64,000 nt of DNA from Argopecten irradians (lineage: Eukaryota > Mollusca > Bivalvia > Pectinida > Pectinidae), in the NCBI RefSeq assembly GCF_041381155.1, contig NC_091144.1, positions 35,007,262-35,071,261 on the forward strand, read 5' to 3'. The position numbers and the translations under genes are program-made. The stretch's first letter is position 1, and each line of letters begins with the position of its first letter. The notes beneath the pieces were generated by a model, which saw only the letters and a list, made by a program, of their open reading frames with translations, had not been told where the DNA came from and ran no database searches. Below, piece by piece: positions 6,795-64,000 of the stretch.

Positions 6795-6999
6795 CAGATT
6801 CAGATTCTTTATTTTGCTTAAGTTTTACAACTTATCGCAACATATAAACAATTACATGCATAATAATACATAAGGGCATTGTTCTCATTACAAAACCATA
6901 TACACTTTCACAAACATTCACACCCACCCATAAAAGTTTAATTAAAAAAACACCATTAAATTCTATATCTATTGTAGTATCTATAGCAGAATCTATAGC

Positions 7000-7073
<74 letters not shown>

Positions 7074-9363
7074 AAAAAAATGGTCTTCACCTGACAGCAA
7101 ATTTCTTCTTTCTAAAGAATAAGAAATATATTTACCTAAATTATTTAAGTCCTTTACATTTTGTGTATTTAATAATTGACATAACTTAAACATGCTAGGA
7201 TTTTTATTATATAATATGGTTAAAAAATTTTAATCTTAAATCTTCATACACCTTACATTTAATAACAAAATGGAATTCATCTTCAATATCATCATTACAA
7301 AATGAACATATTCTCTGATTCCTAGGTATATTCTTATATCTTCCCCTCTCTATATTCAAATCATGGGCAGATAACCGAAATTTAGATATGTTTCTCTTAA
7401 CTTTAAAGTCTGAAGATTTATTTAGATAAGGTTGACAAAAATAAGTTGTAATGAGATATTTGTATAATTTTCCTTTATATGAATCATTTATCAAACGTAC
7501 ACATTCCTGTATAAAAGATCTTCTAACTTAAATAATTTAAATAGATCAGAATTAGATTTAAAAAAAGATTCAAAATCATATATATAGCCCAGACCCAAAT
7601 TATTTAATTCCAATCTCAACTGTAAAATCCAACTATGATTATTTTCTTCCATTTCTATAAGACATTCCTTTAAAATGCAATTGTTAGATTTTTTTAGTTT
7701 CATCCAGTAATTAAATATTCTAATTTTCCTGATAATAGATAAAGAAACTCTTCCGAGTTAAATATACATGTGTATACCATAGCATTAGTAGTGTTGTTCT
7801 TCACACCAAGTACTCTTTTTAAGAAGCTGTTGTGTACCTTTTCAATGTCAGGAGCTTTATGGAATCCCAATATTTCACCTCCATAATTCAAAACACTTCT
7901 AACATAAGAATCAAAAACTGCCAAACTGGTTTCAATATTAAAAAAGTTGTTTTTGCATACATTCATAACAGCGAACAAAGCTTTTTTTACCTTGTTCTGA
8001 GATATGCCTTTTAGTTTTAATTTTTTTTCCGTTATAGTTTAACATAGGCCCCAGATAATTGAATTTATTTACGACCTCAATTGGCTCATTATTGTAATAC
8101 CATTTCTCATTATTTCTAATAGTTCCATCATTTCTAAAAACAATTATTTTTGTTTTCTGCACATTAACAGTAAGCCCCCATTTTGTAGTATAATCCTGTA
8201 AGGAATTCAACATGACTTGGAGATCATCTGGCGACTCGGATAACAACACCATATCATCTGCATACATGTACATGAGTGGAAAACTATTAATGGTTCGAAT
8301 CTCTAATAAAGTGCAATTATCATTAATAAAATTAATTTCTAAGTCATTGACAAACAATGTAAATAATATCGGTGACAAAATTTCTCCTTGGAACAATCCA
8401 CAGTTGACCTTGTAGAAATCTGAGGAGGTACCATTGTATTTTACAAAACATCTTACATAATCATATATGCTTCTTATAATTCTCAACATTTTGCCTTATA
8501 CTACCTCCTTTATAAGTTAAATAAGTTAAATATTATATCTAATTACAAAATCAAATTCCTTTTTATAATCGACAAAACAACAGTATAATCGTTTTCGTTT
8601 TCTTAGTGCCCTATCTATCTGACATTGCAGAGCGAAAATGGCATCTACCGTTGACAGACCTTTCCGGAAACCAAATTGTGCGTCGGTTAATTTATTATAA
8701 TTTTGATCAACTGTAACGAGCCTTTCATTTAACACAGAAGTGAATATTTTACCAAGACAACTGACTAACGTAATTCCTCGATAATTATAAGGATTTTCTT
8801 TATCTCCCTTTTTAAAAACAGGGATACATGTACCAATACTCCAAATAGGATCGCAATTGTCCCGAATCAAATACTTGGTTAAATATGGTCCTAAGACATG
8901 GAATAAGAAAATCTTTTGCTGTTATAAAAAGTTCATTGTACAAACCATCAAGTCCATAAGCCTTATTACGTTTGAGTTTATTTATTGCCATTTTTACTTC
9001 TCTTTCAGTTATATCATTGTCTAGCTCTTCGTACGATACCGTTCCATTATCTACGTCATATTCTAGTAAGAACTCTGCCGCCTCTTCATTTGCATCTACA
9101 CTCGTCAGCTGCAAGTTTCTAAAATGATCATAAAAAGCTTGTCTTGTTATTTTGCCATTGTTTTGCCTACTTTTTTTCTTAAACATTTTATGAAACCTTT
9201 CCGGATTATTTTTCCTGAGGAAATTCATTAAATTACCTTGATGTCGTTTGTACCCTCTCTTTAGTCTAGCTTCGACTTTCTTATACTGTTTTTTCTTGTC
9301 AATAAGCTCACTGTGGTTTTGTCTAGATTTACATCGACAAAAAATTCTTAAAGCTGATCTCAT
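6795..9363 (-). mobile_element. LINE (CR1/L2/Jockey-like), 5' truncated, left copy
   Basis: Minus-strand reading from 9363 gives the linker (KKYKKVEARLKRGYKRHQG), the reverse transcriptase fingers (NPYNYRGITLVSCLGKIFTS, QFGFRKGLSTVDAIF), the palm with catalytic YADDMVLLS, and a C-terminal CSFC...H...C segment (QRICSFCNDDIEDEFHFV). The endonuclease is missing, as expected for 5' truncation. The reading is interrupted by frameshifts, with separate ORFs at 8812-9363, 8526-8870, 7938-8489, 7700-7978, 7491-7703 and 7207-7494. The 3' end is marked by AATAAAGAATCTGAATCTGC near 6795-6820, a tail style used by CR1/L2-type elements. A (GA)n tract lies in the 3' UTR. The same element, with its flank, is present inverted at the other end of the window. 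Confidence 0.8.
7004..7071. repeat. (GA)n microsatellite in LINE 3' UTR
   Basis: Uninterrupted GA dinucleotide tract of about 68 bp between the LINE coding part and its 3' end. The inverted copy has the complementary (TC)n tract at the matching place (about 63788-63843), so the tract existed before the copies separated. Confidence 0.95.
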
Positions 9364-9780
9364 ATTCGATTTATGATACTTGTTTCGAATTTTTCATTTG
9401 AAAATATAATAATATATTATAATAAATTTAATATGAAGGTAAACGAATGACAGATCCTCTATCTATCAACAAGACAATAACTATTTGAAACGTTTAAATA
9501 TTAAGCCTTCGTCCAAAATTGGTATATTTGGTACCTGTAAACAAGACATCCCTTCAAAGGTAGACTGGGTTGCCTATCGTAGTTTTTCTATCCTCCGCAA
9601 GGTTTCGCTACGAATATACAACTAGTATTTATGAGCGCAGCCTAGCGGATAAAATTGGTACTAACGCAGATAACCCCGTCTCATCCTCGATACTCCAGGG
9701 GTTCCGATCACTTACGATCTCTACACCCCTGGACTATCTCATAGTAAAACTATACAGAATAGAACAGGTAATTTAATCAT
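9364..9780 (+). promoter_or_regulatory. Upstream region and probable 5' UTR exon of the fucosyltransferase gene (left arm)
   Basis: This stretch matches 60497-60955 in inverted orientation and lies just upstream of the fucosyltransferase in both places, so it is the best candidate for the promoter and a non-coding first exon. A consensus splice donor (ACAG followed by GTAATT) sits at 9764-9773 and is conserved in the right arm. The intron and the next exon's beginning are lost in this left arm (see the gene entry). No TATA box is clear. Confidence 0.45.
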
Positions 9781-9807
9781 TTGATGTACATCAAATGAGC
9801 CGTGTAA

Positions 9808-10860
9808 CGTGCAATTCGGAAAAAGAAGAACATTTATTTCTACAATCCAGAATTCTTCCCCGTGTTTGATGATTGGATAGTTGATACGTGGGGAACAGGA
9901 AAGAAATTTGAAAACTGTCCGGTATCCGATTGTATTGTAACTAAAAACAAAAACATATCCATGGACAAAGTAGATGCCGTTATCTTTAAGCCAAGGGCCA
10001 TGCGATACTGCCCTCCAAAGAAAACTCCAGGTCAAGTTTGGATATTTACTGAATTTGAAAGTCCAACTTACTATTTCCAAAAGAAGTGTTTTTACGCCCT
10101 GAAGAATAAAGTGAACTGGACCATGTCATATCGCCGCGATGCTGACTTTACACTCGAACATGGCTACTTTAGAAAAAGCAGTAAACCCAAATACAACCAG
10201 AAAGATTTGGATGAAATTTATGCTAAGAAGAACAAGATGGCTGTGGCGTTTATAAGTAACTGTAAAGCACGTAGCAAGAGACATGAATTTATCAAACTTT
10301 TACAGTCTCATGGTATCCAAGTTGACATATTTGGATCATGCGGAACTAAATTGAAGGAATGTGACAACGATCTTCGCTATCGTGCATGCTTTAATATATC
10401 AGGGAGTCTTGAACCAGATTGCTTCGTTTCAGTTCTTCCAAAGTATAAGTTTTTTCTTTCATTTGAAAATGCCCTTTGTTGGGATTACACGACAGAAAAA
10501 TCTCAACATCGTGTCATGCAGCATCCAATAGTGCCAGTAATACGAGATGGCAGTAACACAACCATATTTCACCCCCCTCATTCCTACCTTAACACAAACG
10601 ACTACAAATCTGTGAAAGAACTTGCTCAACATATGAAGACGTTAGCTAACAACAAGACCGCTTATTTGGAATATTTTAAATGGAAGCAATATTACGAAAC
10701 AGAAGATATGTTTTTTGAATGGAACGCTGCATTTTGTAGTATTTGTGAAAGACTAAACAATCCGGAGAAACACCGCCGTGTTTACCGTGACGTAGCAGCT
10801 TGGCACATAAACCCAAACGGAAAACAAGCATGCCATAATGCATCGGATCTGACTTCTTAG
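9808..10860 (+). CDS. Alpha-1,3-fucosyltransferase-like (GT10), lacking N-terminal anchor
   Basis: An open single-exon reading of about 350 codons that matches GT10 fucosyltransferases, which move fucose from GDP-fucose to N-acetylglucosamine-type acceptors in the Golgi. The family signature is clear: KYKFFLSFENALCWDYTTEK, followed by VPVIRDGS and PPHSYLNTNDY. The N-terminal catalytic half includes NIYFYNPEFFP and WIFTEFESP. The frame opens at 9808 after a stop, and homology to the right-arm copy starts at about 9813. The first in-frame ATG is at 9961, inside the N-terminal catalytic lobe. GT10 enzymes normally begin with a short cytosolic tail and one membrane anchor; here that part is deleted. 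Compared with the right arm about 540 bp are missing, including the intron end, start codon and anchor. The catalytic domain has no internal stop. A candidate poly(A) signal AATAAA lies at 11145-11150. The gene may be a pseudogene or make a soluble or inactive product. Confidence 0.85.
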   Translation, partial: RAIRKKKNIYFYNPEFFPVFDDWIVDTWGTGKKFENCPVSDCIVTKNKNISMDKVDAVIFKPRAMRYCPPKKTPGQVWIFTEFESPTYYFQKKCFYALKNKVNWTMSYRRDADFTLEHGYFRKSSKPKYNQKDLDEIYAKKNKMAVAFISNCKARSKRHEFIKLLQSHGIQVDIFGSCGTKLKECDNDLRYRACFNISGSLEPDCFVSVLPKYKFFLSFENALCWDYTTEKSQHRVMQHPIVPVIRDGSNTTIFHPPHSYLNTNDYKSVKELAQHMKTLANNKTAYLEYFKWKQYYETEDMFFEWNAAFCSICERLNNPEKHRRVYRDVAAWHINPNGKQACHNASDLTS

Positions 10861-12230
10861 GTCAAACCTTTACTGGGTGAGGACTATGATGAGAAAACGT
10901 CACAATAACTGCCTTAGTTGCGTGTGTGTACTCAGGATTTTTTTCCTGTATAGACTAAACGAACCTGAACCGGAATATATAATTGTGATAACCGGAACAT
11001 ATAATTGTGATAACCGGGATATATAATTTTGATACGTCAGAACGATGAAAACCGATTAAAAACAACTCGACGATAGGTAAAAGGGAACACAATACGTCGC
11101 GTTATTCCACTCCCAGGCCGTTTTATAAATGTTTGGTGTGGGATAATAAAATTGATATTCCAGTTGACGTTCCGGACTACTAATTAGGCGAGATTTTCAC
11201 CTTGGACTCGAACTTCTTATTCTCAGTGTCACGTCACAAATTGTTCTTATCGTCATTATTAATCGAATGACGTCATACTGCTGTTCTTCGTTCGCTGTAT
11301 GCAGATGCAGGACAAACCACACCTAAAATCGGATGTGTGACGTCATCGGATTGCATGTTTTCGTATTCCTACAATAAACTGTCAACTCAAAATTGGTATT
11401 TATTCAGCGTTACATCTAGCTGTACGATTAGCCGTTAGGTGATTTTGATAAAATTGACGCACATATCCCGAACTTGAACTTGGTTACAATGGTTGATGAT
11501 TATTCGTCGGGAAGTAGATTATTGTTCAAATATCTATATAAATAGAGATTCAAAAAGACGTTCTTTAAGTAGTAATGCATGGAATAGTTGTTCATAATTT
11601 AAATGATTTGTTCTTAAAACGCACTTCATTTCCGACACAAAAATTGGAATTTGCTCAACAAAAATAACAACTTTTAAATATATATATATAGACATTTACT
11701 CTAATAATTAAATCATTTCTCCATTCTCTCTCAGAATATATCCAATCGACACCAGAAAGATATGTTTCTGACACTGAAAACGATCTGCTCCAAATTCTTA
11801 ACTCTTCACTAATTTCTAGGTTCCATAACAGTTCAAAAAGGCAATACTAAATCACCTCTTAAAGTACGTGTAATAAAAAAAATGAAAGAGCATGCACGCT
11901 TCAGTACAAGGAGTAGCCAAAACATATGAGACCTACTTAATGTTATTTACCGTTACGTCATGATCACATACACAACATTCCGAGGATTGTTTGTTTGTTT
12001 AATAAATTTAAGTCCTGTTAAAGTGATGTACGCTGTAACTGGCCGAAAACTATATACTATATAAGTGAATATAATAATGTTGGCATTAAAATCATTTCCA
12101 GTTCTTATTTGTACTTGTAAATTAAAAACCTATGCATTGAAACTGCTGCAATTCCCAAAATGTTGGTAACTTTTGTTAATAAATAACATACTAAAGACTC
12201 ATTTTGATTCGTGAATATGCAAAATACGGC
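10861..12230. other. Non-coding stretch 3' of the fucosyltransferase
   Basis: AT-rich sequence holding the presumed 3' UTR of the fucosyltransferase, with short near-repeats of CCGGAATATATAATTGTGAT at 10970-11030. No ORF with recognisable content and no repeat family I could name. Confidence 0.5.
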
Positions 12231-12234
12231 ACAT

Positions 12235-12335
12235 AAAACTTTAACAGCTATGGTCATGTAAGGGAGGCCTCCCATGTATGTAACGTCTATGCAATGCATA
12301 TTGCGTGTTTTGGAAGACTGCGGTATATCCGAGGA
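12235..12335 (-). mobile_element. SINE 3' fragment
   Basis: Contains the SINE 3' segment (AACAGCTATGGTCATGTAAG through GGAAGACTGCGGTATAT) in minus orientation, without tail or head. It is diverged and truncated at both ends. Confidence 0.75.
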
Positions 12336-12639
12336 TGAACAGTAGAATAAACAGTAACATTTTTACTAAATCATGTTCATGCAGAAAAAAACCAATGCCG
12401 ACTTGATTATCCTTGGTAATGCAATACTATTGATAAGACTCATTCCAATCATAACTTTATACAATAGGCAAGCAAAGCTTAACATGTAGTTTGTACAAAA
12501 TTACCTAGCGACTCACTGCAACACAAGTTAAAAACCTAAATATAAGTTCAATTGCATAGACAACTTAAAGTCTAAGATATAGTACTCTGATATAAAAACC
12601 ACTAATTTTTCAATGTTTCCTTCTAAACAATAAATATCA

Positions 12640-12800
12640 AAGAAACACCATTTAACAAAGCTTGACAATTTATTGACTCGTGCCCTATTCGGGCCTCGAA
12701 CTCACGATCTACGGCACCCAATCACCTAGCCAAACATACCTGCGCCTTCTACCACTGCGCCACATCCACATCCCCCAAAAAGGATGTTTCTATGCCGAAG
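12640..12800 (-). mobile_element. tRNA-derived SINE head (second family)
   Basis: The minus strand reads GATGTGGCGCAGTGGTAGAA (a good polymerase III A box, 12747-12769) and, 43 bp on, GTGAGTTCGAGGCCC (B box, 12690-12704). The spacing is that of a tRNA promoter. The sequence does not close into a clean acceptor stem, so a tRNA-derived SINE is likelier than a tRNA gene. The part after the B box (GGGCACGAGTCA) recurs at 12948-12960 beside a repeated AAACACAA-type flank, which suggests a partial local duplication. Confidence 0.6.
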
Positions 12801-12894
12801 TGATAGTCGGTTCGATATGCTGACATGATCACTGTGGAAATTGTCAAATTAAATCTTTGGATCAACAACACATAGTGAATATGATACATTGTGT

Positions 12895-12985
12895 TAAGTA
12901 AATATTAAATATCAAAAAACACAATTGAACAAAGCATGCCATTTTTAGTGACTCGTGCCCTATCCTTCTAAACAATACATATACG
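12895..12985. repeat. Local duplicate of 12600-12690
   Basis: Shares the run from ATATCAA...CAAAGCATG through GACTCGTGCCCTA with 12640-12690, and TCCTTCTAAACAATA with 12620-12634. The order of the two blocks differs, so a simple tandem duplication does not explain it. Confidence 0.5.
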
Positions 12986-13468
12986 TAAATATAAGAAAAT
13001 GACTCTATAAAAATCTGGACTTCTTGTTTTACAATTCAATTTCAAAAATAAAAAAAGTTTCTGAAATATAATGTATTATACATCATCCATGCAATTGTAA
13101 GCAATAGATAATAATATTTCTCTTTATTTTATCTGGCTTTCCATCAGTGAATGTGTTTTTTTTTGGCACATAACCTATCTTGTCTCAATCCATATAACTT
13201 TTTTCAGGATTTATTTGAAAGACATGTAAAAGCTTTAAACATGTTTAATCTTGTTTAAAGAGAAACTAGGTTATAAGTGTTGGTTGTGATGTAAGTGTAA
13301 GTGTAAGTAATGGTTTACTAAAAAATTGTTTATGGTAATACCACTTTGGTTGATTTTTAAAGCCGATCTAAGGCGTTCTACATGAAGAATATACGGACAC
13401 AGAGGGTCACTCTGTCGTACCCAACGTTGTCAAAACTTCAAAACAATTTTAGCAATAGTCAATATTAA

Positions 13469-14369
13469 AGGTAGGTCTCGCCCAATGAAATACTGTATAT
13501 AAAGAATACGAAATTGAAATTTATCCTGTACATAGATATAATCTTCAGTTCATTTTCGATGCATACAACGAAGAATATGGGTGGTCATTGCCTAGCTTGA
13601 CCAGGAAAATACTCCTCTAAAAATAGAGCGAAGTCAAGCTTTACATGGAACATGGCGTAATTTTTTTTACCAACACGAGGCCGCATCAACAAACGGAAGC
13701 GTGCAACAAAATGTCGGTTAGAAGTGACAGTCTTGTCACGGCATGTTTAGTCAAAAAAAAAGAAAAAAAAGACAACAAGTCGAAGTGCGATGGATTGTTT
13801 ATACATAATATATATAGAACACTTCAAGTTACTTACATACGCTCGCTAGCTTAGTACATCAAACATTTATGTTGTTAGTCTGCTGCTGTATGTGCTCTAG
13901 CATATGTTTTGAAATTTAACTCACCATGTGCAACATGAGTCCCAATAGAATCGGGCGAGTTCCGCTTGAGATGTGGCTTCTGTTTCTTCTATTGCTACAT
14001 GCCATCTCTGAATTTCATTCCCTAGAGATATCCTAGGGTGCTACCGATTCCATTCTAATTTCCTCCTCTTTGTTGCCGATTCAGATACATTTTTTTCTTC
14101 ACAGGCTTATATTCACCCATTTTGTTTATGTTCAGTGCGAAACAATGCGCATGAGCCAAGCTTCGACAACACAATCCATCGCAGCTTCATTTGAATGTTA
14201 TCCTGTCAGCCTGACATCGTGATAAATCAAGGATTTCCTTCAATTTTGTATTCAAGATACATTTGTTCAATATCATACGCATTTAGAAATTAAATTGATG
14301 TATTTTTTAAAATGTTTTCCGCTTATCGGATTTGACAAAAAAAAATATTTGGTTGGGCGAAACCTACCT
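13469..14369. mobile_element. 901-bp TTAA-flanked terminal-inverted-repeat element
   Basis: The left end reads AGGTAGGTCTCGCCCAA and the right end is its near-perfect inverse (TTGGGCGAAACCTACCT). Both ends are flanked by TTAA (13465-13468 and 14370-14373), the target duplication used by piggyBac-type transposases. No transposase is encoded; the only ORF (13645-13854) has no recognisable content. It is therefore a non-autonomous element. The right 270 bp recur at 59599-59865, directly abutting the second fucosyltransferase copy. Confidence 0.8.
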
Positions 14370-14373
14370 TTAA

Positions 14374-15710
14374 AGTGAATAGTCGGGCAAAGGAAACCAG
14401 TCTAAATGCGTTCTTTGGCCTTCCAAAAGTCATTGTATACCATAATGATGGTCAAGTTCTGCTTACGGTGTCCAGTTTTGACCATTGAAATTTTGGGGAA
14501 GCCCCGTGTAAATTTAGCACAGTTCTAAATATAAATTGCCAAACTCTTTGAAAACGAGGCTGCGTGGAAATGTCAACATGGACATGTGTTTCTCGGTCGT
14601 GTCGGTTTCGTTTCGTGTGATAAACCACTAATGCGGTATGTAAATTGTTGTTTTGAGATGATACATTTGATGCAAATGAAGTATTCTTACATTAATGACA
14701 ATGCTTTGTAATCATTTTTCGATAAAAGCATCTTTATACATGGAAATCGACACAAATATTCGGCCGATGCAGAGATGGGGCCCCGACAAGAGGCAATTAT
14801 TGCAGCATCGCATTCGTCGTATTTTACATCAAACGAATCATGAAGGTTAAATCAGAGATTTCAATAGTAATGATATTTAAATCTCTGGTTAAATACAAAT
14901 AATCGTAACATAATTTCCCATTTAAAACCACACGAAAACGCTCCATACAACTTCCATGCATGTAGCTGTCAAAGATGTGAAAATAAATTAGCTCATACAT
15001 AGATATTTTACAAGTACAATATATGTGTTCAATTATTCGTGTAGTTTTTTGCAGAGATTTAATTAAATTATCTATGTCTCTGGTTTTTTTTTTTGTAAAC
15101 AATATTTGAGTTCTGGAGAGAGATGACATGAATGTCCAGCTGGAAGGAAAGAAACTTTTATAATGTATATGTATTGTACAATGTATATATGTAAACGTAC
15201 ATTCCATGTAGCTGCTATAGAATTACAACTAGGAAATTCTCTCAAACATTGATAATATTTAATTATTCACATTCATGTAGGCCTATGCTGTGAGAATTAA
15301 CACATCATATATATTTCCAGAAAAACATATAGGCCTACATGTATGTTACTTTCCTTTTCTGTTGTTTCCTGTTTTTTTTGTGCTCTGGAGAAAAAGATGA
15401 TTGAGTTGGAAGAAAAGTAATTAATTAAGAGAAATGTGTACCACAGTACTTTGTCTGTAGCCGAGGGGTTCTATACTGTTTTAATAGTCCAGTAATTAAT
15501 AATTAAATTGAAAATTTCAAAATTAAGATGAAATTGTAAATTCCATTTTTGAATGAAGTGGTTCCCTACCTTTGAGAGTACACAGTGTGTATACCCTTTT
15601 TGGTTTTAAGGAATAATACCTGAATAGGAACCTGAAATAACATGACAATCAATCAGGAATGTGTGTGTTGGGGGGGGGGGGGGGGGGGGGGCTAAAAAGA
15701 CAGAAAATCA
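14374..15710. other. Non-coding stretch with poly-G run
   Basis: AT-rich DNA with no recognisable gene. The 127-codon minus ORF at 14824-15207 has biased, low-complexity composition and no domain. A run of 24 G lies at 15668-15691, a likely weak spot for sequencing. A short inverted pair around TGTAGGCCTATG / CATATAGGCCTACA lies at 15277-15340. Confidence 0.5.
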
Positions 15711-15713
15711 TGA

Positions 15714-15967
15714 GGTTGGGAAGTTGTAACTTGAGTGGGGGGTTGAAATATAGAAGAAATAGCTACAGATAACTGGAATAGGAAGGGTGCTTTATCATTG
15801 ATCGGTTCATTGCATATTTGGGGTTTATCATGGCTTTTTTTGGTTATTTAGTCTCATTGATTTTGGAGCATCTTTGAATCCATATGGTACTGTATATCTT
15901 TCTTTTTTCCATGTGTAGCTATTTCTTCTGTATTTCAACCCCCCGCCAAAGTCACAACTTCCCAATA
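15714..15967. repeat. Foldback: about 54-bp inverted repeat
   Basis: The arm at 15714-15768 (TTGGGAAGTTGTAACTT ... GAAATAGCTACA) is inverted at 15914-15967 (TGTAGCTATTTCTTC ... AACTTCCCAA) with about 145 bp between. The arms are over 80 percent alike by eye. It could be a small foldback transposon; no target duplication is evident. Confidence 0.7.
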
Positions 15968-16056
15968 GGTACCACTTTTTTGTTTAGAACTCAAATCAAA
16001 GACAGATGTACATAGTACTACATACTACATTTTAGTCTATGTGTTTGTAATCATCG

Positions 16057-16308: not shown

Positions 16309-16358
16309 ATATGATTATTATTATAAATTTTATCAAATAAGGACAATGATATACATGC

Positions 16359-21283: not shown

Positions 21284-21287
21284 TTAA

Positions 21288-22469: not shown

Positions 22470-22825
22470 AGATAAATACAAAAAGAGATCCCAGAGGGAT
22501 CTTGGCGCCCACCAAAGAATGATCTGGGTCTGACAATGGAAAGAGGGATCTTTTCCCTGCTTTTCAAACACACTATATATAAAATTTGAGACAGATCGCT
22601 ATAGTACTTTCTAAGAAATAGCGATAACAAACTTTAAGTATCAAAATCCAAGATGGCCACCTGTCGGCCATCTTGTTCACCGATCGGTCCCAAAAATGCA
22701 ATATGCACAACAAGGGTTTTTAAGAAATAGTGATAACAAGCATTGTTTACGGACGGACGGCGGACGACGGACCACGGACGCAGGGCGATTTGAATAGCCC
22801 ACCATCTGATGATGGTGGGCTAAAA
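22470..22825 (-). mobile_element. Helitron-like tandem-repeat element, short form
   Basis: In minus orientation it starts with the hairpin AGCCCACCATCA/TGATGGTGGGCT (22797-22822). It carries one unit of the approximately 155-bp satellite seen at 33-35 kb, including CAAGATGGCCGAC and its inverse. It ends with the hairpin GATCCCTCTGGGATC at about 22479-22493. It appears to be a minimal member of the family that forms the large array at 31.2-35 kb. Confidence 0.7.
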
Positions 22826-31249: not shown

Positions 31250-32562
31250 TAAGCAGGGTAATTGTCCAAAGCATTGTGGGGGGTTTAAGGAACCTACCAA
31301 AATTTGACATTGTGGGGTCTGGTTATACATAAACTTGTGAATTGTCTTATCCATTGGATTGTGAGGTTGTTGTCCAAGGCATTGTGGGGTATTTTAAGGA
31401 ACCTACCAAAATTTGACATTGTGGGGTCTGGTTATACATAAACTTGTGAGTTGTCTTATCCATTGCATTGTGAGGTTGTTGTCCAAGGCATTGTGGGGTA
31501 TTTTAAGGAAACTACCAAAGTTTGACATTGTGGGGTCTGTTTATATACATAAACTTGTGGGTTGTCTTGTCCATAACATTGTGAGGTTGTTGTCCAAGGC
31601 ATTGTGGGGTATTTTGAGGAAGTTACCAAAGTTTGACATTGTGGGGTCTGTTTGTGAGCTGTCTTATCCATTGCATTGTGAGGTTGTTGTCCAAGGCATT
31701 GTGGGGTATTTTAAGGAACCTACCAAAATTTGACATTGTGGGGTCTGGTTATACATAAACTTGTGAGTTGTCTTATCCATTGCATTGTGAGGTTGTTGTC
31801 CAAGGCATTGTGGGGTATTTTAAGGAAACTACCAAAGTTTGACATTGTGGGGTCTGTTTATATACATAAACTTGTGGGTTGTCTTGTCCATAACATTGTG
31901 AGGTTGTTGTCCAAGGCATTGTGGGGTATTTTGAGGAAGTTACCAAAGTTTGACATTGTGGGGTCTGTTTGTGAGCTGTCTTGTCCATAACGTTGTGAGG
32001 TTGTTGTCCAAGGCATTGTGGGGCATTTTGAGGAAGTTACCAAAGTTTGACATTGTGGGGTCTGTTTATTTACATAAACTTGTGGGTTGTCTTGTCCATA
32101 ACATTGTGAGGTTGTTGTCCAAGGCATTGTGGGGTATTTTGAGGAAGCTACCAAAGTTTGACATTGTGGGGTCTGTTATACTTGTTGGTTGTCTTGTCCA
32201 TAACATTTGAGGTTGTTGTCCAAGGCATTGTGGGGTATTTTGAGGAAGTTACCAAAGTTTGACATTGTGGGGTCTGTTTGTGAGCTGTCTTGTCCATAAC
32301 GTTGTGAGGTTGTTGTCCAAGGCATTGTGGGGTATTTTGAGGAAGTTACCAAAGTTTGACATTGTGGGGTCTGTTTATATACATAAACATGTGGGTTGTC
32401 TTGTCCATAACATTGTGAGGTTGTTGTCCAAGGCATTGTGGGGTATTTTGAGGAAGTTACCAAAGTTTGACATTGTGGGGTCTGTTTATATACATAAACC
32501 TGTGGGTTGTCTTGTCCATAACGTTGTGAGGGTGTTGTCCAAGGCATCGTGGGGTATTTTGT
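31250..32562 (+). repeat. Satellite array 1, units of 97-112 bp, about 12-13 copies
   Basis: Each unit contains TTGTCCAAGGCATTGTGGGG, a variable middle and TTTGACATTGTGGGGTCTG. Unit starts (TTGTCCAAGG) lie near 31369, 31481, 31591, 31688, 31799, 31907, 32007, 32117, 32217, 32315, 32427 and 32535. Short and long units alternate. A block of three units (about 317 bp, 31413-31729) is repeated almost exactly at 31730-32046, a higher-order repeat that points to recent expansion. ORFs across it on both strands are only a result of the tandem structure. Confidence 0.95.
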
Positions 32563-32865
32563 GCTAAGGACTACATAGTGGGGTGGTATGTCCATTTCAC
32601 TGTGGGGCAGCATTCTTTATAATATTGTGGGGTTGTTGTCCGTAGCCTTGTGGGGTATTTTATGCTAAGGGCTACATAGTGGGGTGGTATGTCCATTTCA
32701 CTGTGGGGCAGCATTCTTTATAACATTGTGGGGTTGTTGTCCTAGCATTGTGGGGTATTTTATGCTAAGGACTACATAGTGGGGTGGTATGTCCATTTCA
32801 TTGTGGGGTAGCATTCTTTATAACATTGTGGGGTTGTTGGCTACCCCAAAATGTAGCTCTTGTCT
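32563..32865 (+). repeat. Satellite array 2, 101-bp units, 3 copies
   Basis: Units start at GCTAAGG near 32563, 32664 and 32764 and contain CTACATAGTGGGGTGG and GCAGCATTCTTTATAA. They share the TTGTGGGGTATTTT segment with array 1, which suggests one grew out of the other. Confidence 0.92.
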
Positions 32866-32959
32866 GAATTCCTAATGCTTCCCCACAATGTCGATTTTAG
32901 CAGCATTGAAACCCCATAATGAATGTCCGAACTGACCACCCCATTATGTAACCCTCGTC

Positions 32960-34860
32960 TGTACGTCCGTTAATAATTCTTGTTACCGCTATTCCTCAGA
33001 AAGTGCTGAAAGGATCTTTCTCAAATTTCATATGTAGGTTTCCCTAGGACCCTAGTTGTGCATATTGCATTTTTGGACCGATCGGTCAACAAGATGGCCG
33101 ACAGTCGGCCATCTTGGATTTTGATAGTTGAAGTTTGTTACCGCTATTTCTCAAAAAGTGCAGAAGGGATTTCTCTCAAATTCCATATACAGGTTCCCCT
33201 AGGACTCTAGTTGTGCATATTGCATTTTGGGACCAATCGGTGAACAAGATGGCCGACAGGCGGCCATCTTGGATTTTGATAGTTGAAGTTTGTTACCGCT
33301 ATTTCTCAAAAAGTGCTGAAGGGATCTTTCTCAAATTTCATATACAGGTTTCCCTAGGACTCTTGTTGTGAATATTGCATTTTGGGACCAATCTGTCAAC
33401 AAGATTGCCGACAGGCAGCCATCTTGGATTTTGATAGTTGAAGTTTGTTACCACTATTTCTCAAAAAGAACTGCAGGGATTTTTCTCAAATTTCATATAT
33501 AGGTTCCCCTAGGGCCCTTGTTGTGCATATTGCATTTTGGGACCGATCGGTCAAAAAGATGGCCGACAGGCGGCCATCTTGGATTTTGATAGTTAAAGTT
33601 TGTTACCGCTATTTCTCAAAAAGTGCTGAAGGGATCTTTCTCAAATTTCATATACAGGTTCCCCTAGGACCCTAGTTGTGCATATTACATTTTGGGACCA
33701 ATCGGTGAACAAGATGGCCGACAGGTGGCCATCTTGGATTTTGACAGTTAAAGTTTGTTACCGCTATTACTCAAAAAGTACTGAAGGGATCTTTCTCAAA
33801 TTTCATATATAGGTTTTCCTAGGGCCCTAGTTGTGCATATTGCATTTTGGAACCGATCGGTCAACAAGATGGCTTGGATTTTGATAGTTAAAGTTTGTTA
33901 CCGCTATTTCTCAAAAAGTACTGAAGGTATCGTTTCTCAAATTTCATATGAAGGTTCCCCAAGGACCCTAGTTGTGCATATTGTTAATTGGGTCCGATCG
34001 GTAAACAAGATGGCCGACAGGCGGCCATCTTGGATTTTGATAGTTGAAGTTTGTTACCGCTATTTCTCAGAAAGTACTGAAGGGATCATTCTCAAATTTC
34101 ATATGTAGGTTCCCCTAGGACCCTTGTTGTGCATATTGCATTTTGGGACCGATCGGTCAACAAGATGGCCGACAGGTGGCCATCTTGGATTTTGATAGTT
34201 AAAGTTTGTTACCGCTATTTCTCAAAAAGTGCAGAAGGGATCTTTCTCAAATTTCATATACAGGTTCCCATAGGACCCTAGTTGTGCATATTACATTTTG
34301 GGACCGATCGGTGAACAAGATGGCCGACAGGTGGCCATCTTGGATTTTGACAGTTAAAGTTTGTTACCGCTATTACTCAAAAAGTACAGAAGGGATCTTT
34401 CTCAAATTTCATATATAGGTTTCCCTAGGGCCCTAGTTGTGCATATTGCATTTTGGAACCGATCGGTCAACAAGATGGCTTGGATTTTGATAGTTAAAGT
34501 TTGTTACCGCTATTTCTCAAAAAGTACTGAAGGTATCGTTTACAAATTTCATATGAAGGTTCCCCAAGGACCCTAGTTGTGCATATTGTTAATTGGGTCC
34601 GATCGGTAAACAAGATGGCCGACCGACGGCCATATTGGATTTTGATTGTTAAAGTTTGTTACCGCTATTTCTCAGAAAGTACTGAAGGGATCTTTCTCAA
34701 ATTTTATGTGTAGGTTCCCCTTGTACCCTAGTTGTGCATAGTACCTTTTAGGACTGATGCATAATGCCTTTCGGGACTGATCGGTAACAAGATGGCTAAC
34801 CGGCCGCCATCTTAGATTTCATTTGTGAAGTTTGTTACCACTATTTCTTAGAAAGTACTA
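32960..34860 (+). repeat. Satellite array 3, about 155-bp units, about 12 copies
   Basis: Units carry GTTACCGCTATTTCTCA, TTTCTCAAATTTCATAT, GTTGTGCATATTGCATTTTG and an inverted pair AAGATGGCCGAC/GGCCATCTT. Unit starts lie near 32984, 33139, 33292, 33447, 33601, 33756, 33898, 34054, 34207, 34362, 34505 and 34662. A four-unit block of about 606 bp (33756-34361) recurs at 34362 onward, including the same short unit lacking the inverted pair. This is a recent higher-order duplication. Confidence 0.95.
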
Positions 34861-34992
34861 TAGCGATCTGTCTCAAATTTTATATGTCATGTGTTTGAAA
34901 AAGTTTGAAAAGCAGGGAAAAGATCCCTCTTTCCATTGTCAGACATAGATCTTTCTTTGGTGGGCGCCAAGATCCCTCTGGGATCTCTTGTT

Positions 34993-35105
34993 ATATTCAA
35001 AGTTTGTTATCGCTATTTCTCAGAAAGTATTGAATGGATCTTTCTCAAAATTTCACATGTAGGTTCCCCCCTAGGGAGCCCTGGTTGTGCATATTGTGAT
35101 TTGGG
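34993..35105 (+). repeat. Stray satellite-3 unit
   Basis: One more diverged unit (AAAGTTTGTTATCGCTATTTC to GAGCCCTGGTTGTGCATATT) directly after the TCTTGTT terminus. It is the remnant of a neighbouring element. Confidence 0.75.
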
Positions 35106-36494
35106 AGCCGATTTAATATATGTACTCGATACTAAACTTAATATTCACGGTGACGACATCTGGATTTTCACTACTGGCTTCCGTGTATTCAAACACGGGT
35201 CGGGATTATAAAATTGCATTTAACATTTAATATTACAAATGCACGATTCAATTGGTTCAATACACACAAAATACAGTTCTTAAAACCCAAAAATTTGGAA
35301 AATATGAAGTTTTTAAAGTATAAAACTACCCGGAAGTTGACAATGTCACATCGAATGCCAGAACTAGCTACTTGGCTAATCGACAAAAAATTCCAACTTC
35401 ATACTCACCTGATCGTCAATACTAAGAAAGTAATATTTAAATGTAATTTAATTGCATAAATTTCCATCAGTACTTACCGAGATCGTTCTAGTAATACCAA
35501 CGAATTCCACCGATTTCCTTCACAAAATCGGTCTGCTTGCCTCCTCGTGAAAAACCGGAAGTCAATACATATGTATTACCAGCTAGGACCGCAGTTTAAT
35601 AATTCAAATATTGAAATTGCATGTGTGAAGTTCAGCTTCTGTTCATTTTAATTTTGTAACTGTCTTCCGGCATGCTGCTGAGACAGATAACCTATTTGAC
35701 AAGCCATTCTAAAAAAACTTTCAAAAAGAAACATCGAGTATGATGACGGTATTCATGGTGTTTATATAAAGCAGTAACCTCTAACTTATATATATTGGCA
35801 TTGACGTCAATATTGATTTACAGTTTTTGATATTAACAACTTGCTATTCTTTCCAATATGGCGACTGTCGCGAATTCGAAAACACACTACGATACGTTCG
35901 TGTAATGCGTGTCCTGCAGGGTGTCTTATTCTTTTTAACGCATAACATTAAGTAGGATATAATGTTAACCATAGAGCCACGATTTTGTTTTATTTCTTTT
36001 ATCGTCTACATGCCGATAGGATATCTAGAAATGCAATTAAACGAATGCATCCTAGTTAATCGAACTTAACATCGTCGAAAATAGAATGTAAACCGAAACA
36101 TATTTCAGTACCACCAATAAGGACATGTACAATATGCCTAGACTTTGGATGTTCTGATTCAATTGAAATAAACGTTTCCGTCACGTCAAAGAACTTTCAA
36201 TATTCGAAATTTTGTTAATTAAATGTCAATATATTGTTGTTATTAGTTGGACTTTTGATGGTTTTAGTTTAACGTATATATCGCTACAGTTGAATACTCT
36301 GTAACTTCCATTTTCCTTTCGTTATTAAAAATGAGGCCCTATGTTGTTGAGTTTTTTTCTCTCGCTCTTGTAATCAGTAATGTTGCTGTACTTTGTACAG
36401 TACCATGAAGGAATCTTTAGTTCAATTATTCTGCAAGTATAACCATAGTCTCTAGTCTCTATAGTAACAGGTGTCGGCAGTATGAGTTTCTCTG
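35106..36494. other. Non-coding, nothing recognised
   Basis: AT-rich stretch with only short ORFs lacking recognisable content. No repeat family identified. Confidence 0.4.
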
Positions 36495-52164: not shown

Positions 52165-52165
52165 G

Positions 52166-56008: not shown

Positions 56009-56116
56009 AGGACACAACTATATATATGATTTATTACTCTACATTTTGTATTTACACTAGTTTATTTAGTAAAGTTTGTTTTGCTATATGCATTTTAAAA
56101 ATAAGAAATTATTTAA

Positions 56117-56610: not shown

Positions 56611-57280
56611 TAATTAATATTTATAAAATTGCACAGCTTTGCGTAAGAGAAACAGAATGAAAAACACATTATAAAATATCAGTTTGAGTATTTGAGCTCT
56701 AGATCTAATGTACCCCAGAAAGGCGTTCAAGCATGACACAGGTAAGTCACCGCGTGTAGAGACTGGACGTTGTTCTAGCGGACAATTATTTTTAACAACG
56801 AAACAAGTTTGTCGTATCAATCAATATCAATATGACAATAAACACACTTTTATGGAACAAAGAACTTCAAAGTAATTTCACGTTTAAAGTTCTGATGAAG
56901 TAAAGGAAAGTATTTATTACAATGCACCAAGGGCGTAAACCATCTCCTTGCAATATTCCCAAGGATAATGAGCGAAAGTGATACGTACACCTGTTGCAGA
57001 GGATGATTTCATAGCGGAAATTAAGGATAGGAAGTATTTAGCGAGCACTTAATGTCAGACATATTTCTAGTTATTATGTTTATATTCAATTTTATGGTAA
57101 AATTACAAGTATTTGATGTACAGTGTACTAGCATTTTATATATATCATATGATTATATATATAATATACACTGAAATGTACTGTATACTGTAAATGCTGT
57201 GCAATGGATTAACTAAATATAAACAACAAATACGATATCAGAAATTGAAAATATTAATAAAGTTTTTTTTTCTTGTTTTC
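56611..57280. other. Non-coding, nothing recognised
   Basis: AT-rich stretch. The 68-codon minus ORF at 56614-56820 has no recognisable domain. Confidence 0.4.
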
Positions 57281-57282
57281 TG

Positions 57283-57612
57283 ACCTAAGGAATCTGGTAG
57301 ACTGACCTAGGGGATCCGGTAGACTGACCCAAGAGATACTATAGACTGACCTAGGGGATACTATATACTGACCTATGGGATCCAGTAGACTGATCTAGGA
57401 GATCCAGTAGACCGACCTAGGGGAGCCGGTAGACTGTTCTTAGGGATACTATAGACTGTCCTAGGGAATCCAGTAGGCTGACCTAGATAATATAGACTGA
57501 CCAAGGGGTCCGGTAGACTGCTAGGGGATCCAGTAGACTGACCTTGGAGATCCAGTAGACTGACCAAGGGGATCCGGTAGACTGACCTAGGGGATCCGGT
57601 AGACTAGGTAGA
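57283..57612 (+). repeat. Minisatellite of about 20-bp units, about 15 copies
   Basis: Imperfect units of GACCTAGGGGATCCGGTAGA with variants (GATACTATAGACTG, GATCCAGTAGACTG). Spacing varies from 18 to 24 bp. Confidence 0.9.
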
Positions 57613-58686
57613 CCTAGGAGATATCTCTATTTATATTAAAGGTATCTCTATTTATATTAAAGGGACATGAACCTAAATAAACCATGTAAATTTGAGTAAA
57701 ATACATATTTAAGACGTGACAGATACCTTACTAAGTAATATAAATCAGATCTATATCGATTGCTGAAGATGATGTTAAAACACCAAATAGTGCAGGTTTT
57801 CTTGTTTAATTCTCCCAAACTTGACAGGGTTATCCCGCGGTTGTAAGGGAAAAGATAACTGTTACCGGGTGAGGAAAAGACAGTCAACACGCACTTGACA
57901 ATAACGTGACGTCATAATTATATGCAGTGATCATTTTCGACGACGTCATTAATTTTGATGCATTACAACGTCGCTTTAATGGCGATGCTTTGAAAATGTT
58001 TCTAAACAAATGAACTTTCACGTTTGTCGTTTAAGTATGTGAGAAAAATAATCAAACATAGGTTTGTCATGTGGACAGGGATATCTCGATCCTCGTGAAA
58101 GATATTGGCCGTCAAAATAATTCACTCGAGTTGAGATATCCTTGTCCACATTTCAGACCTATGCAAGATTCTATCAATCTAGGTTAACAATAATGTGTAT
58201 TTCGTTGTTTGTTCGTTGGCCGTAGTGATAATCAACTACCACACATAATTTAGAAAACGCTGAGAAAAATATGACGACCCGCTTAATGAAAATTAGTAGT
58301 CTGTTTAGAATTGTACAGGTAAATGAATCCCAGTCAGAACGGCCCCACTGCAATAACGGCCACAGTCAGAACGGCGTCAGTTAAAACGGCCCCGTAACAA
58401 TATAAATATATGGTATTAGATTTTATATAATAATATTACAGTATGTCTTGGTAATTAATACGTGTATTCATAAAATTATTTTTCATGGTAGACTATTATG
58501 TGCCAATGCATTTAGATGCATATCCATAATATATTACATATAAAATAAACAAAAAGTGGTAAATATAAAAAGTACATTTTATTTATTGAATTTTATAAAT
58601 TTTATTAGAGGGTGTCTGCCAACACTGAACCTGCCTCCGCAGTTTCACGTGTTGCCCAGCTCTTGCCACGTGGATGCCCCCTCTGC
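57613..58686. other. Non-coding; small AACGGCC repeats
   Basis: Mostly AT-rich with no gene. 58330-58395 holds four or five short units around CAGTCAGAACGGCC. A direct duplication of CTCTATTTATATTAAAGG lies at 57624-57662. Confidence 0.45.
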
Positions 58687-58687
58687 A

Positions 58688-58815
58688 AGATTTGTTTGTT
58701 TGTTTGATTAATTAACGTCCTATTAACAGCTATGGCCATATAAGGACGGCCTCCCATGTGCATGTGGTGTGTTGCGTGTATGTTGCGTGTTTTGGGAGAC
58801 TGCGGTATATTATTT
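58688..58815 (-). mobile_element. SINE 3' fragment
   Basis: Tail (TTTGTTTGTTTG at 58690) and 3' domain to GGGAGACTGCGGTATATTA. The remainder of the SINE is absent. Confidence 0.88.
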
Positions 58816-59594
58816 AGTAGCTGTATGATGATAAGTATAGTATTAACAGCAAGCTAGTAACATTTCGGACCCTACAAATTTCTCACGTTTGTTATACAGT
58901 TGTCCCTAGACTACTTTTATTGATATATTTCGAACAAAAAGTTTGATTCTCTGGACTTTGATTTCATATTTGACTCGCTACGTTTCACGGTTTTTTGGGC
59001 CTCAAAAATTTCTAAAGAATAATTTTATTTTTTGTTGTTTACTGGTTCATCAACTGCATTTGATGGACATATATTTTAAAAGTTAGCGCGTCATGTTGAA
59101 ATATCTGTCCAACAAATGCAGTTCACACACCAGTAAAAAAAAAACAAATAAAAATCGTTCCTTATATCTACATTTAAACGACTACATCTTTTAATTTTAA
59201 TGTTCCGTTAAAATAAATCTTCGTGGCACCAATTTGGTAAAAAAAATGTTGTCAACATCAGAAAGTGCACAAAATATGGTGGTATAGTAATATAAAAAAA
59301 CACTACCTTTTTCATTCCATTCATACAATATTTTTTCAAATATTTTATTTTATGAAATATTACATTACAATTGTTTAATTGAGGAATTAAAAATACAGAA
59401 ACAATATAGGCAAAAGGTGATGCGCATTAACACTACTTGCGGAAGACACTGTTCCGGTGTATGTTTTCTTGCGCGACAACTGACTACAAGTGTAAACGAT
59501 TTCCCATTGGGTAAGATTATATAGCAAAGAAAAAAAAGGAAATGTAAATATTAATTGATTAAATGCTTGTATGAATTTGATCCTACTGTATCAT
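58816..59594. other. Non-coding, nothing recognised
   Basis: AT-rich DNA. An inverted pair around ACTGGTTCATCAACTGCATTTG (59040) and AACAAATGCAG...ACCAGT (59112-59138) could form a hairpin. Confidence 0.4.
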
Positions 59595-59598
59595 TAAA

Positions 59599-59865
59599 GG
59601 TAGGTTTCGTCCAACCAAATAATTGTTTTGTCAAATGCGATAAGCGAAAAACATATTAAAAATACATCAATTTAATTTCTAAATGCGTATGATATTGAAC
59701 ATATGTATCTTGAATACAAAATTGAAGGAAATGCTTGATTTATCACGATGTCAGGCTGACAGGATAACATTCAAATGAAGCTGCTTTGGATTGTGTTGTC
59801 GAAGCTTGGCTCATGCGCATTGTTACGCACTAAACCTAAACAAAATGGGTGAATATAAGGGTGTT
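59599..59865. mobile_element. Truncated copy of the 901-bp TTAA element
   Basis: The outer end AGGTAGGTTTCGTCCAACC has TTAA before it (59595-59598). The inner part matches 14106-14369 inverted and stops at about 59865, where fucosyltransferase sequence begins. Only one terminal repeat is present. Confidence 0.8.
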
Positions 59866-60160
59866 CCCCACGTATCAACTATCCAATCATCAAACATTGG
59901 GAAGAATTCTGGATTGTAGAAATAAATGTTCTTCTTTTTCCGAATTATACTGTTGGCTAGATAGTGAGTCGCTGTGGAATTTCCTATTGTAATATCTCTT
60001 ACATATGATATATCTCCCTGATGGAATATAGCAACAGTTTCCTTTGGCGAAATGTCTATCAACGTACTTTAATAAAGCCAATCCGATGATAATGATGCTG
60101 ATACATAATGTAATAGCTACAAAACGTCTGGGGGTAAATCGATGCCAAAGTTTCATTTTT
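59863..60160 (-). pseudogene. Fucosyltransferase N-terminal exon (GT10), truncated, right arm
   Basis: On the minus strand an acceptor (TTTTTCAG) at 60161-60168 precedes AAAAATGAAACTTTGG. The ORF starts at 60156 with MKLWHRFTPRRF, then the membrane anchor VAITLCISIIIIGLALL. This is a classic type II Golgi layout. At about 60060 the reading shifts by one base into TVAIFHQGDISYVRDITIGN and then NSIIRKKKNIYFYNPEFFPM, matching the left gene through VDTWG. There the gene stops against the truncated TTAA element, so the catalytic domain is lost. Product unlikely. It shows what the left gene is missing. Confidence 0.8.
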
Positions 60161-60496
60161 CTGAAAAATATTCAGAAAAAATTCTAAACATTTGTTTATT
60201 TATTTATTGATCATTTATTGTATTTATTTCTTTAAATCATTTATTTATTTATTTACTGATTCATAACATGACTGTTTGATACACCTAAAATCTCGATAAT
60301 AAGCAGGAATCGAAAATATGTCTTTAGAAATGATTTTGATTTTACTTTTAATTTGAATTTATTTTGGCCTTTTATTTCGGATTATTAATATACTAGCTTT
60401 ATACCGTTTTGACCTCATTATGGTCTTTAAATCAAGCTTTGAATTTCCTAAATGTATCTTGAAAAACAGTCAACAACAGTGTACCGCTATACGGCT
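60161..60496 (-). other. 5' intron of the right fucosyltransferase copy
   Basis: Lies between the conserved donor (ACAG/GTAATT, 60521-60530 on minus) and the exon-2 acceptor. It is AT-rich with TTTATTTATTTATT runs. The equivalent is deleted from the left arm. Confidence 0.5.
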
Positions 60497-60969
60497 CTTT
60501 TGATGTACATCAAATGATTAAATTACCTGTTCTTTTCTGTTACCTCCAGTTTTACAATGAGATAGTCCAGGGGTGTAGAGATCGTAAGTGATCAGAGTAT
60601 CGAGGATGAGATTGGGTTACCTGCGTTAGTACCAATTCTCTCCGCTAGGCTGCGCTCATAAATACTAGTTGTATTTTCGGAGCGAAACTTTGCGGAGGAT
60701 GGAAAAACTACGATAGGCAACCCAGTCTACCTTTGAAGGGGTGTCTTGTTTACAGGTACCAAATATACCAATTTTGGACGAAGGCTTAATATTTAGACGT
60801 TTCAAATAGTTATTGTCTTGTTGATAGATAGAGGATCTGTCATTCGGTTTCCTTCATATTAAATTTATTATTCGAGATTTGAGTTTTTCATTTTCAAATG
60901 AAAAATTCGAAACAAGTATCATAAATCGTATATGAGATCAGCTTTAAGAATTTTTTGTCAATGTAAATC
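60497..60969 (-). promoter_or_regulatory. Upstream region of the fucosyltransferase, right arm
   Basis: Inverted match of 9364-9780, about 90 percent alike by eye, including TACCAATTTTGG, CTACGATAGGCAACCCAG and the splice donor. It joins directly onto the LINE, as in the left arm. Confidence 0.5.
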
Positions 60970-60973
60970 TTAA

Positions 60974-61625
60974 AGATGCTCCACCGCCGACAGAGCATAA
61001 ATGATATTCATAATTTGAACAATAATTGGTGTTTAATCATGTATATATATGTCTAGTTAACACAAAATATAATATAAAATAGTTTAATTTGCCTTTGGTG
61101 CATGCGCAATCAGTACATTATTCCATATAGGATATAGTGTAACGGATTTTTTTCGGGATGCAATTAATTATTTTCGATATTTTAAACTTGAAGTAAAATT
61201 AGAAGCTGTACATCTACGTATACGTACATGTAACATGGTAAAATATTGTATTTTATGTTTATGTGTAAACACGCTCCATCGCCGACAGAGCATAAATGAT
61301 ATTCATTACTTGAACAGGAATTGGTGTTTAATCGTGTTTATATGTGTCTAATTAACACAAAAAATAATGTGAAATAGTTTAATTTGCATTTGGTGCATGC
61401 GCAATCAGTACTTCATTTCATATAGAATATAGTGCCATGGATTTTTTTTCGGGGTGCAATTAATTATTTTTTGTAATTTTGACTTGAAGTTAAAATGGAA
61501 GCTCAAATTTTCCAATGGTGGTAATGGTGTAAAGTAAGTAACTTTTGTAACTGAAGAAAAATATCAAATCGTCTGCTGCTGTTTTTGATAGTGAAAAAAT
61601 ACCATTTGTCAGCGGTGGAGCATCT
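60974..61625. mobile_element. Two AGATGCTCC MITEs in tandem inside the LINE
   Basis: The first copy starts AGATGCTCCACCGCCGACA at 60974 after TTAA (60970-60973) and is cut near 61210. A second, in the same orientation, starts at about 61271 (ACGCTCCATCGCCGACAG) and ends GGTGGAGCATCT at 61625 before TTAA (61626-61629). The left LINE copy shows the uninterrupted sequence at about 9315-9330. Confidence 0.88.
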
Positions 61626-61629
61626 TTAA

Positions 61630-63784
61630 CAAAACCACAGTGAGCTTATTGGCAAGAAAAAACAGTATAAGAAAGTCGAAGCTAGAATAAAGAGAGGGTA
61701 CAAACGACATCAAGGTAATTTAATGAATTTCCCCAGGAAAAATAATCCGGAAAGGTTTCATAAAATGTTTAAGAAAAAAGGTAGGCAAAACAATGGCAAA
61801 ATAACAAGTCAAGCTTTTGACGTAGGTAATGGAACGGTATCGTACAAAGAGCTAGACAATAATATAACTGAAAGAGAGGTGAAAATGGCAATAAATAAAC
61901 TCAAACGTAATAAGTCTTGTGGACTTGATGGTTTGTACAATTAACTTTTTATAACAGCAAAAGATTTTCTTATTCCATGTCTTACGACCACATTTAACTG
62001 AATATTTGACTCGGGACAATTCCGATCCTCATGGAGTATTGGTACATGTATCCCTGTTTTTAAAAAATGAGATAAAGAAAAATCCTTATTATTACCGAGG
62101 AATTACTTTAGTCAGTTGTCTTGGTACCGAGGAATTACTTAAGTGTTAAATGAAAGGCTCGTTACAGTTGATCAAAATTATAATAAATTAGCAAACGCAC
62201 AATTTGGTTTCCGGAAACGTCTGTCAACGGTGGATGCCATTTTCGCTCTGCAATGTCTGATAGATAGGGCACTAAGAAAACGAAAACGATTATACTGTTG
62301 TTTTGTCGATTATAAAAAGGCATTTGATTTTGTAAATAGGCGTAATCTGTTGTGTAAACTTATGAAGGAGGGAATAGAAGGCAAAATGTTGAGAATTGTA
62401 AGAAGAATTTATGATGATGTAAGATGTGTAAAATACAATGGTACCTCAGATTTCTAAAAGGTCAACAGTGGATTGTTCCAAGGAGAAATTTTGTCGCCGA
62501 TATTATTTACATTGTTTGTCAATGACTTAGAAATTAATTTTAATAATGATAATTGCACTTTATTAGAGTTTCGAACCATTAATATTTTTTCACTCATGTA
62601 TGCAGATGATGTGGTGTTGTTATCCGAGTCGCCAGATGATCTCCATGTCATTTTGAATTCCTTACAGGATTATACTACAAAATGGGGGCTTACTGTTAAT
62701 GTGCAGAAAACAAAAATAATTGTTTTTAGAAATGGTTGAACTATGAGAAATAATGAGAAATGATATCCATTAATGAGCCAATTGAGGTCGTAAATGAATT
62801 CAATAAGCTGGGGCTTATGTTAAACTATAACGGATTGTTTTTTTTAAATTCAAAGGCATATCTCAGAACAAGGTATAAAGCTTTGTTCGCTGTTATGAAT
62901 GTATGAAAAAACAACATTTTTAATGTTGAAACCAGTTTGGCAAATTTTGATCCTTATGTTAGTAGTGTTTTGAATTATGGAGGTGAAATATGGGGATTTC
63001 GAAAAGCTCCTGACATTGAAAAGGTACACAACAGCTTCTTAAAAAAGAGTACTTGGTGTGAAGAAAAACACTAGTAATGCTATGGTATATATATTTGAAC
63101 TCGGAAGAGTTTCTTTATCTATTATCATGAAAATTAGAATATTTAATTACTGGATGAAACTAAAAAATTCCGACAATTGCATTTTAAAGTAATGTCTTAA
63201 AGAAATGGAATAAAATAATCATAGCTGGATTTTACAGTTGAGATTGGAATTAAATAATTGTGGTATAGGCTATGTATATATGATTTGAAATCGTTTCTTA
63301 AATCTGATTCTGATCTATTTAAACTCAAGTTAGAAGATCTTTTAGACAGAAATGTGTACGTTTGATAAATGATTCATCTAAAGGAAAATTATACAAACAT
63401 CTTATTACAACTTATTTTTGTCAACCTTATTTAAATAAATCTTTAGGCTTTAAAGTTAAGAGAAACATACCTAAATTTCGGTTATCTGCCCATGATTTGA
63501 ATATAGAGAGGGGGAGATATAGGAATATACCTAAGAATCAGAGAATATGTTCATTTTGTAATGATGATATTGAAGATGAATTCCATTTCGTTTTTAAATG
63601 TAAAGTGTATGAAGATTTAAGATTGAAATTTATAAAACCATCATATATGTGAATTCCTTGCATGTTTAAGTTAATTCAAATATTAAATACACAAAATGTA
63701 AAGGTCTTAAATAATTTGGGTAAATATATTCTTTTGCTTTAGAAAGATGAAAATTGCTGTCAGGTTAAGACCAAATTTTTTTAC

Positions 63785-63847
<63 letters not shown>

Positions 63848-64000
63848 GCTATAGATACTACAATAGATATTGAATTTAATGGATGGTATGTTTTTTAATC
63901 AAACTTGTATGGGTGGATGTGAATGCGTGTGAAAGTGTATATGGTTTTGTAATGAGAACAATGTCCTTATGTAGCATTATCTATTATTATGCATGTATTT
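61630..64000 (+). mobile_element. LINE (CR1/L2/Jockey-like), right copy, runs off window
   Basis: Inverted match of 6855-9330. Pieces read NFPRKNNPERFHKMFKKKGR, QFGFRKRLSTVDAIF, VDYKKAFDFVNRRN, MYADDVVLLSESPDD and NIPKNQRICSFCNDDIEDEF. Frames change between 61723-61944, 62143-62457, 62473-62739 and 63362-63652. Relative to the left copy about 25 codons are missing after QAF (about 61820), and a double MITE insertion splits the linker. The (TC)n tract lies at 63788-63843. Homology is still running at base 64000. Confidence 0.85.
63788..63843. repeat. (TC)n microsatellite in LINE 3' UTR
   Basis: Uninterrupted TC tract of about 56 bp, the counterpart of the (GA)n tract at 7004-7071 in the inverted copy. 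Confidence 0.95.

Follow-up and report, generated by a model that had tools for sequence, protein, structure and literature searches.

Two opposite-facing fucosyltransferase copies in a window of the Argopecten irradians genome as probable members of a recently expanded and now decayed GT10 array

Results

The window, that is, the whole stretch of 64,000 nucleotides analysed in the present study, carries two copies of a GT10 (alpha-1,3-fucosyltransferase-like, FUT) gene, herein named C (left arm) and D (right arm). The letters A, B and E to H denote related copies outside the window. The features on which the argument rests are as follows.

5243-16053, plus strand: block of copy C, about 10.8 kb, comprising the LINE remnant, the FUT 5' region, the FUT gene, the 3' flank and a dispersed element
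6850-9322, minus strand: LINE-like reverse transcriptase remnant, antisense to FUT, with Pfam RVT_1 on the minus-strand ORF 7938-8492
9325-9769, plus strand: FUT 5' region, including a donor GT at 9768-9769 and a putative untranslated exon 1, both inferred from sequence alone; also present in A, H, F, G and D, and partly in B
9808-9813, plus strand: junction, placed by alignment, of a C-private deletion of about 515 bp, with a few filler bases; the exon-2 acceptor, the ATG and the anchor are gone
9808-10860, plus strand: open catalytic frame of C, 350 codons plus stop
10922-13143, plus strand: F-like tract of C, with the F state at 98 of the 106 sites where A and H agree and differ from F
14374-16053, plus strand: dispersed element of about 1.7 kb within the C block, with many genome copies at 92-97% identity
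59594-59859, minus strand: 3' flank of D after its deletion
59862-60156, minus strand: truncated coding exon of D, with ATG at 60156-60154 and acceptor AG at 60162-60161
59862-64000, minus strand: 5' part of copy D, whose relatives F and G still match beyond the window end
60970-61629, minus strand: tandem MITE-like pair in D, the second partial, formed by an element of about 360 bp (about 660 bp in all) at the LINE/FUT boundary

The sequence-only reading of this DNA had described arms at 6815-9900 and 59863-64000 that face in opposite directions about 50 kb apart, and self-BLAST bears this out: 6850-9897 matches 64000-59862 on the opposite strand in blocks of 89-98% identity. These blocks pair 6850-9058 with 64000-61818 on the minus strand (89.3% over 2233 columns), 9133-9322 with 61818-61629 (97.4%), 9325-9809 with 60970-60485 (90.1%), and, from a further comparison, 9813-9897 with gene-sense positions 4055-4139 of D (window 59946-59862), the last being 85 bp of coding exon at 97.6%. 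Aligned block by block, the arms have more than the LINE in common: the similarity also takes in the FUT 5' region together with its donor site and the first part of the catalytic exon.

The block of copy C has sharp ends. On the left, the match between A and C starts at 5243, and the sequence of A farther upstream is common to H, F, G, D and B. On the right, C departs at 16053/16054, the end of the dispersed element, where H and B go on together at 98.6% over 966 columns; this element occupies the same site in B and H and partly in A and G, and is absent from F and D. Because these ends are private to C and lie where other copies continue, C looks like an inverted ectopic duplicate of about 10.8 kb at a new site. 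The loss of about 540 bp with the exon-2 acceptor, ATG and anchor that had been claimed for the left gene is real, and the stretch absent from C between 9809 and 9813 measures 512-538 bp in A, H, F, G and D. Ancestral absence of this stretch was ruled out, since the ATG exon is kept in all seven other copies. The remaining catalytic frame belongs to the GT10 family by a match to PF00852 (E 6.9e-49; 166.4 bits against the curated cut-off of 23.9), accompanied by PF17039 (E 2.7e-18). Its first ATG, at 9961, is codon 52. The type II topology of GT10 enzymes (short cytosolic end, anchor and stem), as read from the sequence, is missing, C being without the whole 5' coding part.

Copy D was said to keep the anchor exon and to have lost everything after the codons for VDTWG. 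The exon is indeed retained, but a frameshifting deletion of 5 bp in the stem, at 60057/60056, means that it is also broken. Likewise, the match to the left arm does end at 59862 after these codons, but similarity resumes 3' of the gap, where 59859-59594 matches 14106-14373 at 94.4%. Since this 3' flank resumes at 59859 and is then collinear with F for about 970 bp, the loss in D is an internal deletion, 4.2 kb in extent and equivalent to 9898-14105 of C; truncation by an unrelated insertion was ruled out on the same ground. Type II topology is not preserved in D either, in which the hydrophobic stretch is kept, the frameshift follows and most of the catalytic part is gone. D lies on the same strand as all other copies except C.

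When the left arm was searched against the whole genome, FUT-associated copies were observed at six other places (A, B, F, G, D and H). A, B, F and G are on the contig of the window and H is on an unplaced contig of 50.8 kb; copy E, at 35.24 Mb, was added by a family search and then confirmed. There are thus at least eight copies, seven linked within about 460 kb (about 34.85-35.31 Mb, with C alone on the plus strand) and one unplaced, and this count is a lower bound because the searches score the best candidates only. The repeating unit consists of the LINE remnant, the FUT 5' region with noncoding exon 1, a single coding exon and the 3' flank (exons inferred), and the LINE remnant was found upstream of A, B, C, D, F, G and H. 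PF00852 has 107 matches in the genome, some of them several per gene. The search for an intact gene elsewhere, which the sequence-only reading had recommended, gave no near-identical undisrupted parent among the 116 of 125 candidates scored in the protein search; the best uninterrupted family members, distant from the array, are 74% (contig C1) and 70% (contigs C6/C657) identical to the catalytic frame of C.

The nearest relatives of C were determined segment by segment. The groupings tested were picked after the identities had been inspected; copy E was omitted from the trees, and D from the three later trees, which cover parts that D lacks. In the 5' region (6953-9628, gaps excluded), C is 98.75% identical to A, which lies 160 kb away, 98.03% to H and 92.71% to D. 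In the tree of 6953-9808, C pairs with A and H joins next, at 100/100, and a C and D sister grouping was rejected (lnL 486 lower, p-AU 0.0004); the two arms are not mutually nearest. An upstream segment of about 1.4 kb is common to A and C and missing from the other copies compared (H, F, G, D and B). Wherever A and H agree against F, the state of C can be scored: 153 of 157 such sites in 6823-9628 are A-like, those in 9637-10612 are mixed (16 A, 10 F), and 55 of 57 in 13384-14345, beyond the F-like tract, are A-like again. In the middle (10836-13374), C is 98.69% identical to F versus 93.21% to A, these two copies group together in the tree (C with F, 100/100), and a grouping of C with A and H was rejected (p-AU 6e-6). 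Moreover, blocks within 12507-12973 are common to C and F and absent from A, H, G and B.

Within the coding part, C is nearest to A in 9808-10118 (99.0%) and to B (100%) and E (99.7%) in 10119-10454; the tests for the coding segments are weak (p-AU 0.039 for C with A and H, 0.049 for C with F), and the relations are patchy. In 13375-14372, B, G, H and A are 98.8-99.6% identical to C versus 93.2% for F. The tree of this part is without resolution and does not reject the grouping of C with F (p 0.466), so that the ends of the F-like tract are approximate. C is therefore a mosaic, A/H-like upstream, F-like in 10922-13143 and B/H/A/G-like thereafter, and these segments with conflicting nearest relatives demonstrate gene conversion or a similar exchange among copies. 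Copy G is also mosaic, since its 5' part groups with F but its 3' flank with A and H. Copy H is A/C-like at its 5' end, yet 98.6% identical to B past the 3' element; it may have arisen by recombination between A and B or represent an alternative haplotype.

All eight copies are disrupted in this assembly. In addition to the deletions in C and D, frameshifts, stops or insertions were observed in A, H, B, E, F and G, with two stops common to A and H. Copy G is nearest to whole, being open from the ATG through most of its length and broken only near the C-terminal end. Some of the single-base disruptions, including this break in G, could be sequencing or assembly errors. The cluster has the composition of a pseudogene array, that is, linked copies with mostly independent disabling changes.

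Of the 21 within-array pairs, 20 have a dN/dS ratio under 1, and the values run from 0.16 to 1.07; the calculation covered seven copies, with D omitted, E masked after its insertion and gapped or stop codons dropped. The lowest values were those of G-B (0.16), C-G (0.17), C-B (0.23) and C-E (0.23), and the highest those of C-A (1.07) and F-G (0.86), neither of which indicates clear constraint; rearranged patches distort the values in which A or H takes part. These ratios fit a lineage that was functional and under constraint during much of its divergence. Private substitutions in the same seven copies, counted at two-state sites only and inflated in A and H by the rearranged patches, amounted to 34 nonsynonymous and 11 synonymous changes, in keeping with the neutral ratio (p 0.86).

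Several other repeats were observed. The MITE-like element found as a tandem pair in D occurs once in F and G, is absent from A, H and C, and is seemingly double in B; about 30 further genome places were found among 40 candidates scored. At the insertion point, A, H and C show two base differences from TTAA, which may be the footprint of an excision or simple substitutions. Large minus-strand ORFs occupy 619-4774: that at 619-2157 matches RVT_1 (E 7e-22), has a weak RNase H match below the cut-off and is possibly DIRS-like, and that at 2663-4771 has no Pfam match. A dispersed repeat at 6142-6601 has several copies in the window in both orientations and also borders the C block on the right, at 16054. 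Two adjoining satellite-like arrays, with units of about 111 bp and 155 bp, span 31262-35112, and a single unit of the 155-bp type lies apart from them at 22573-22717 on the minus strand.

Discussion

Three points bear on how the two arms should be read. First, the arms had been taken for a large inverted duplication framing the window. They are two of the eight copies found and not each other's nearest relatives, and the frame-like look of the pair results from the window edge, because the similarity of D to F and G runs past the window end. Second, the losses in C and D are unrelated, and their complementarity arose by chance only; the seemingly reciprocal loss is two separate deletions, since each copy gained its own disabling changes. 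Third, the suggestion of a duplication-inversion followed by deletions holds in part, in that C resembles an ectopic copy in inverted orientation and a deletion is present in both C and D, but the two are not a private pair.

Herein, we propose, with high confidence, that C and D are members of a recently expanded and now decayed GT10 array with duplication, inversion and exchange. C would have arisen when a unit of about 10.8 kb resembling A was copied, in reverse, to a site about 160 kb distant. Sequence was swapped among copies, in whichever direction and at whatever date, leaving the F-like middle tract of C. D belongs to a group with F and G, and each copy gained disabling changes, some of them common to A and H. 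Such a history appears to be ordinary birth-and-death evolution in which the copies also trade sequence.

Haplotypic duplication or misassembly was also considered. Here, C would represent A, or some other copy, from the other haplotype, placed in the wrong orientation, so that the inversion would be an artefact; the rest of the array would remain. The position of H on an unplaced contig indicates that the locus is incompletely resolved by the assembly, and the identity between C and A in the 5' part lies in a range that alleles of a very heterozygous animal might reach. However, the window contains no N and therefore no marked gap between C and D, C is sharp at 5243 and 16053, where the other copies go on, and its F-like middle is unlike a plain allele of A; we consider this explanation unlikely. 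It might also be speculated, although with little probability, that the whole cluster is a recently silenced lineage still segregating in the population, such that other haplotypes carry working members, intact segments now and then pass between broken copies by exchange and the reference represents only the dead haplotype.

Compatible with the array, the open catalytic frame of C might belong to a working gene that uses another first exon or start. C is the sole copy without a stop or frameshift in the catalytic frame over 350 codons, and a comparison of 339 codons gave a single substitution private to it. Despite this, an in-frame stop lies directly upstream, the first ATG falls inside the N-terminal domain, there is no anchor, and a copy that is young or was lately converted would equally have few private changes, so that a working gene appears very improbable. 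Finally, it is hardly credible that a single gene was duplicated in inverse and its two copies then lost complementary parts, as the sequence-only reading had proposed for one ancestral gene: the LINE, the 5' region and the gene start are common to both arms, with the catalytic part in one and the anchor in the other, but the 6953-9808 tree does not make C and D sisters, six more copies are likewise broken in different ways, the anchor exon of D is frameshifted, and the frame of C has no ATG before codon 52.

The array reading carries a caution, namely that two arms limited by a window cannot be read as a private pair when their nearest relatives lie outside it. Provided that the assembly is correct, the cluster shows in a small space how members of a large family of animal fucosyltransferases were duplicated, inverted, exchanged and left to decay. 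Among the publications listed in the literature searches, none deals with such an array, judged by titles and abstract openings.

Among known systems, the copies compare first with the GT10 alpha-1,3-fucosyltransferases, to which copy C is linked by scores over the cut-off for both PF00852 and PF17039 and by FUT9 as the best solved relative (E 3.1e-20). The array differs from them in that every copy found is disrupted in this assembly. The element of about 360 bp compares with the TTAA-flanked MITEs, which it resembles in its inverted ends and the TTAA at both sides and from which it differs in its tandem double form in D. Tandem multigene families that evolve by birth-and-death with interlocus gene conversion are a third comparison. 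Unlike such families, the cluster in this assembly has no undisrupted member among those found, and C is inverted; like them, it combines clustered similar copies, mosaic relations and mostly independent disabling changes.
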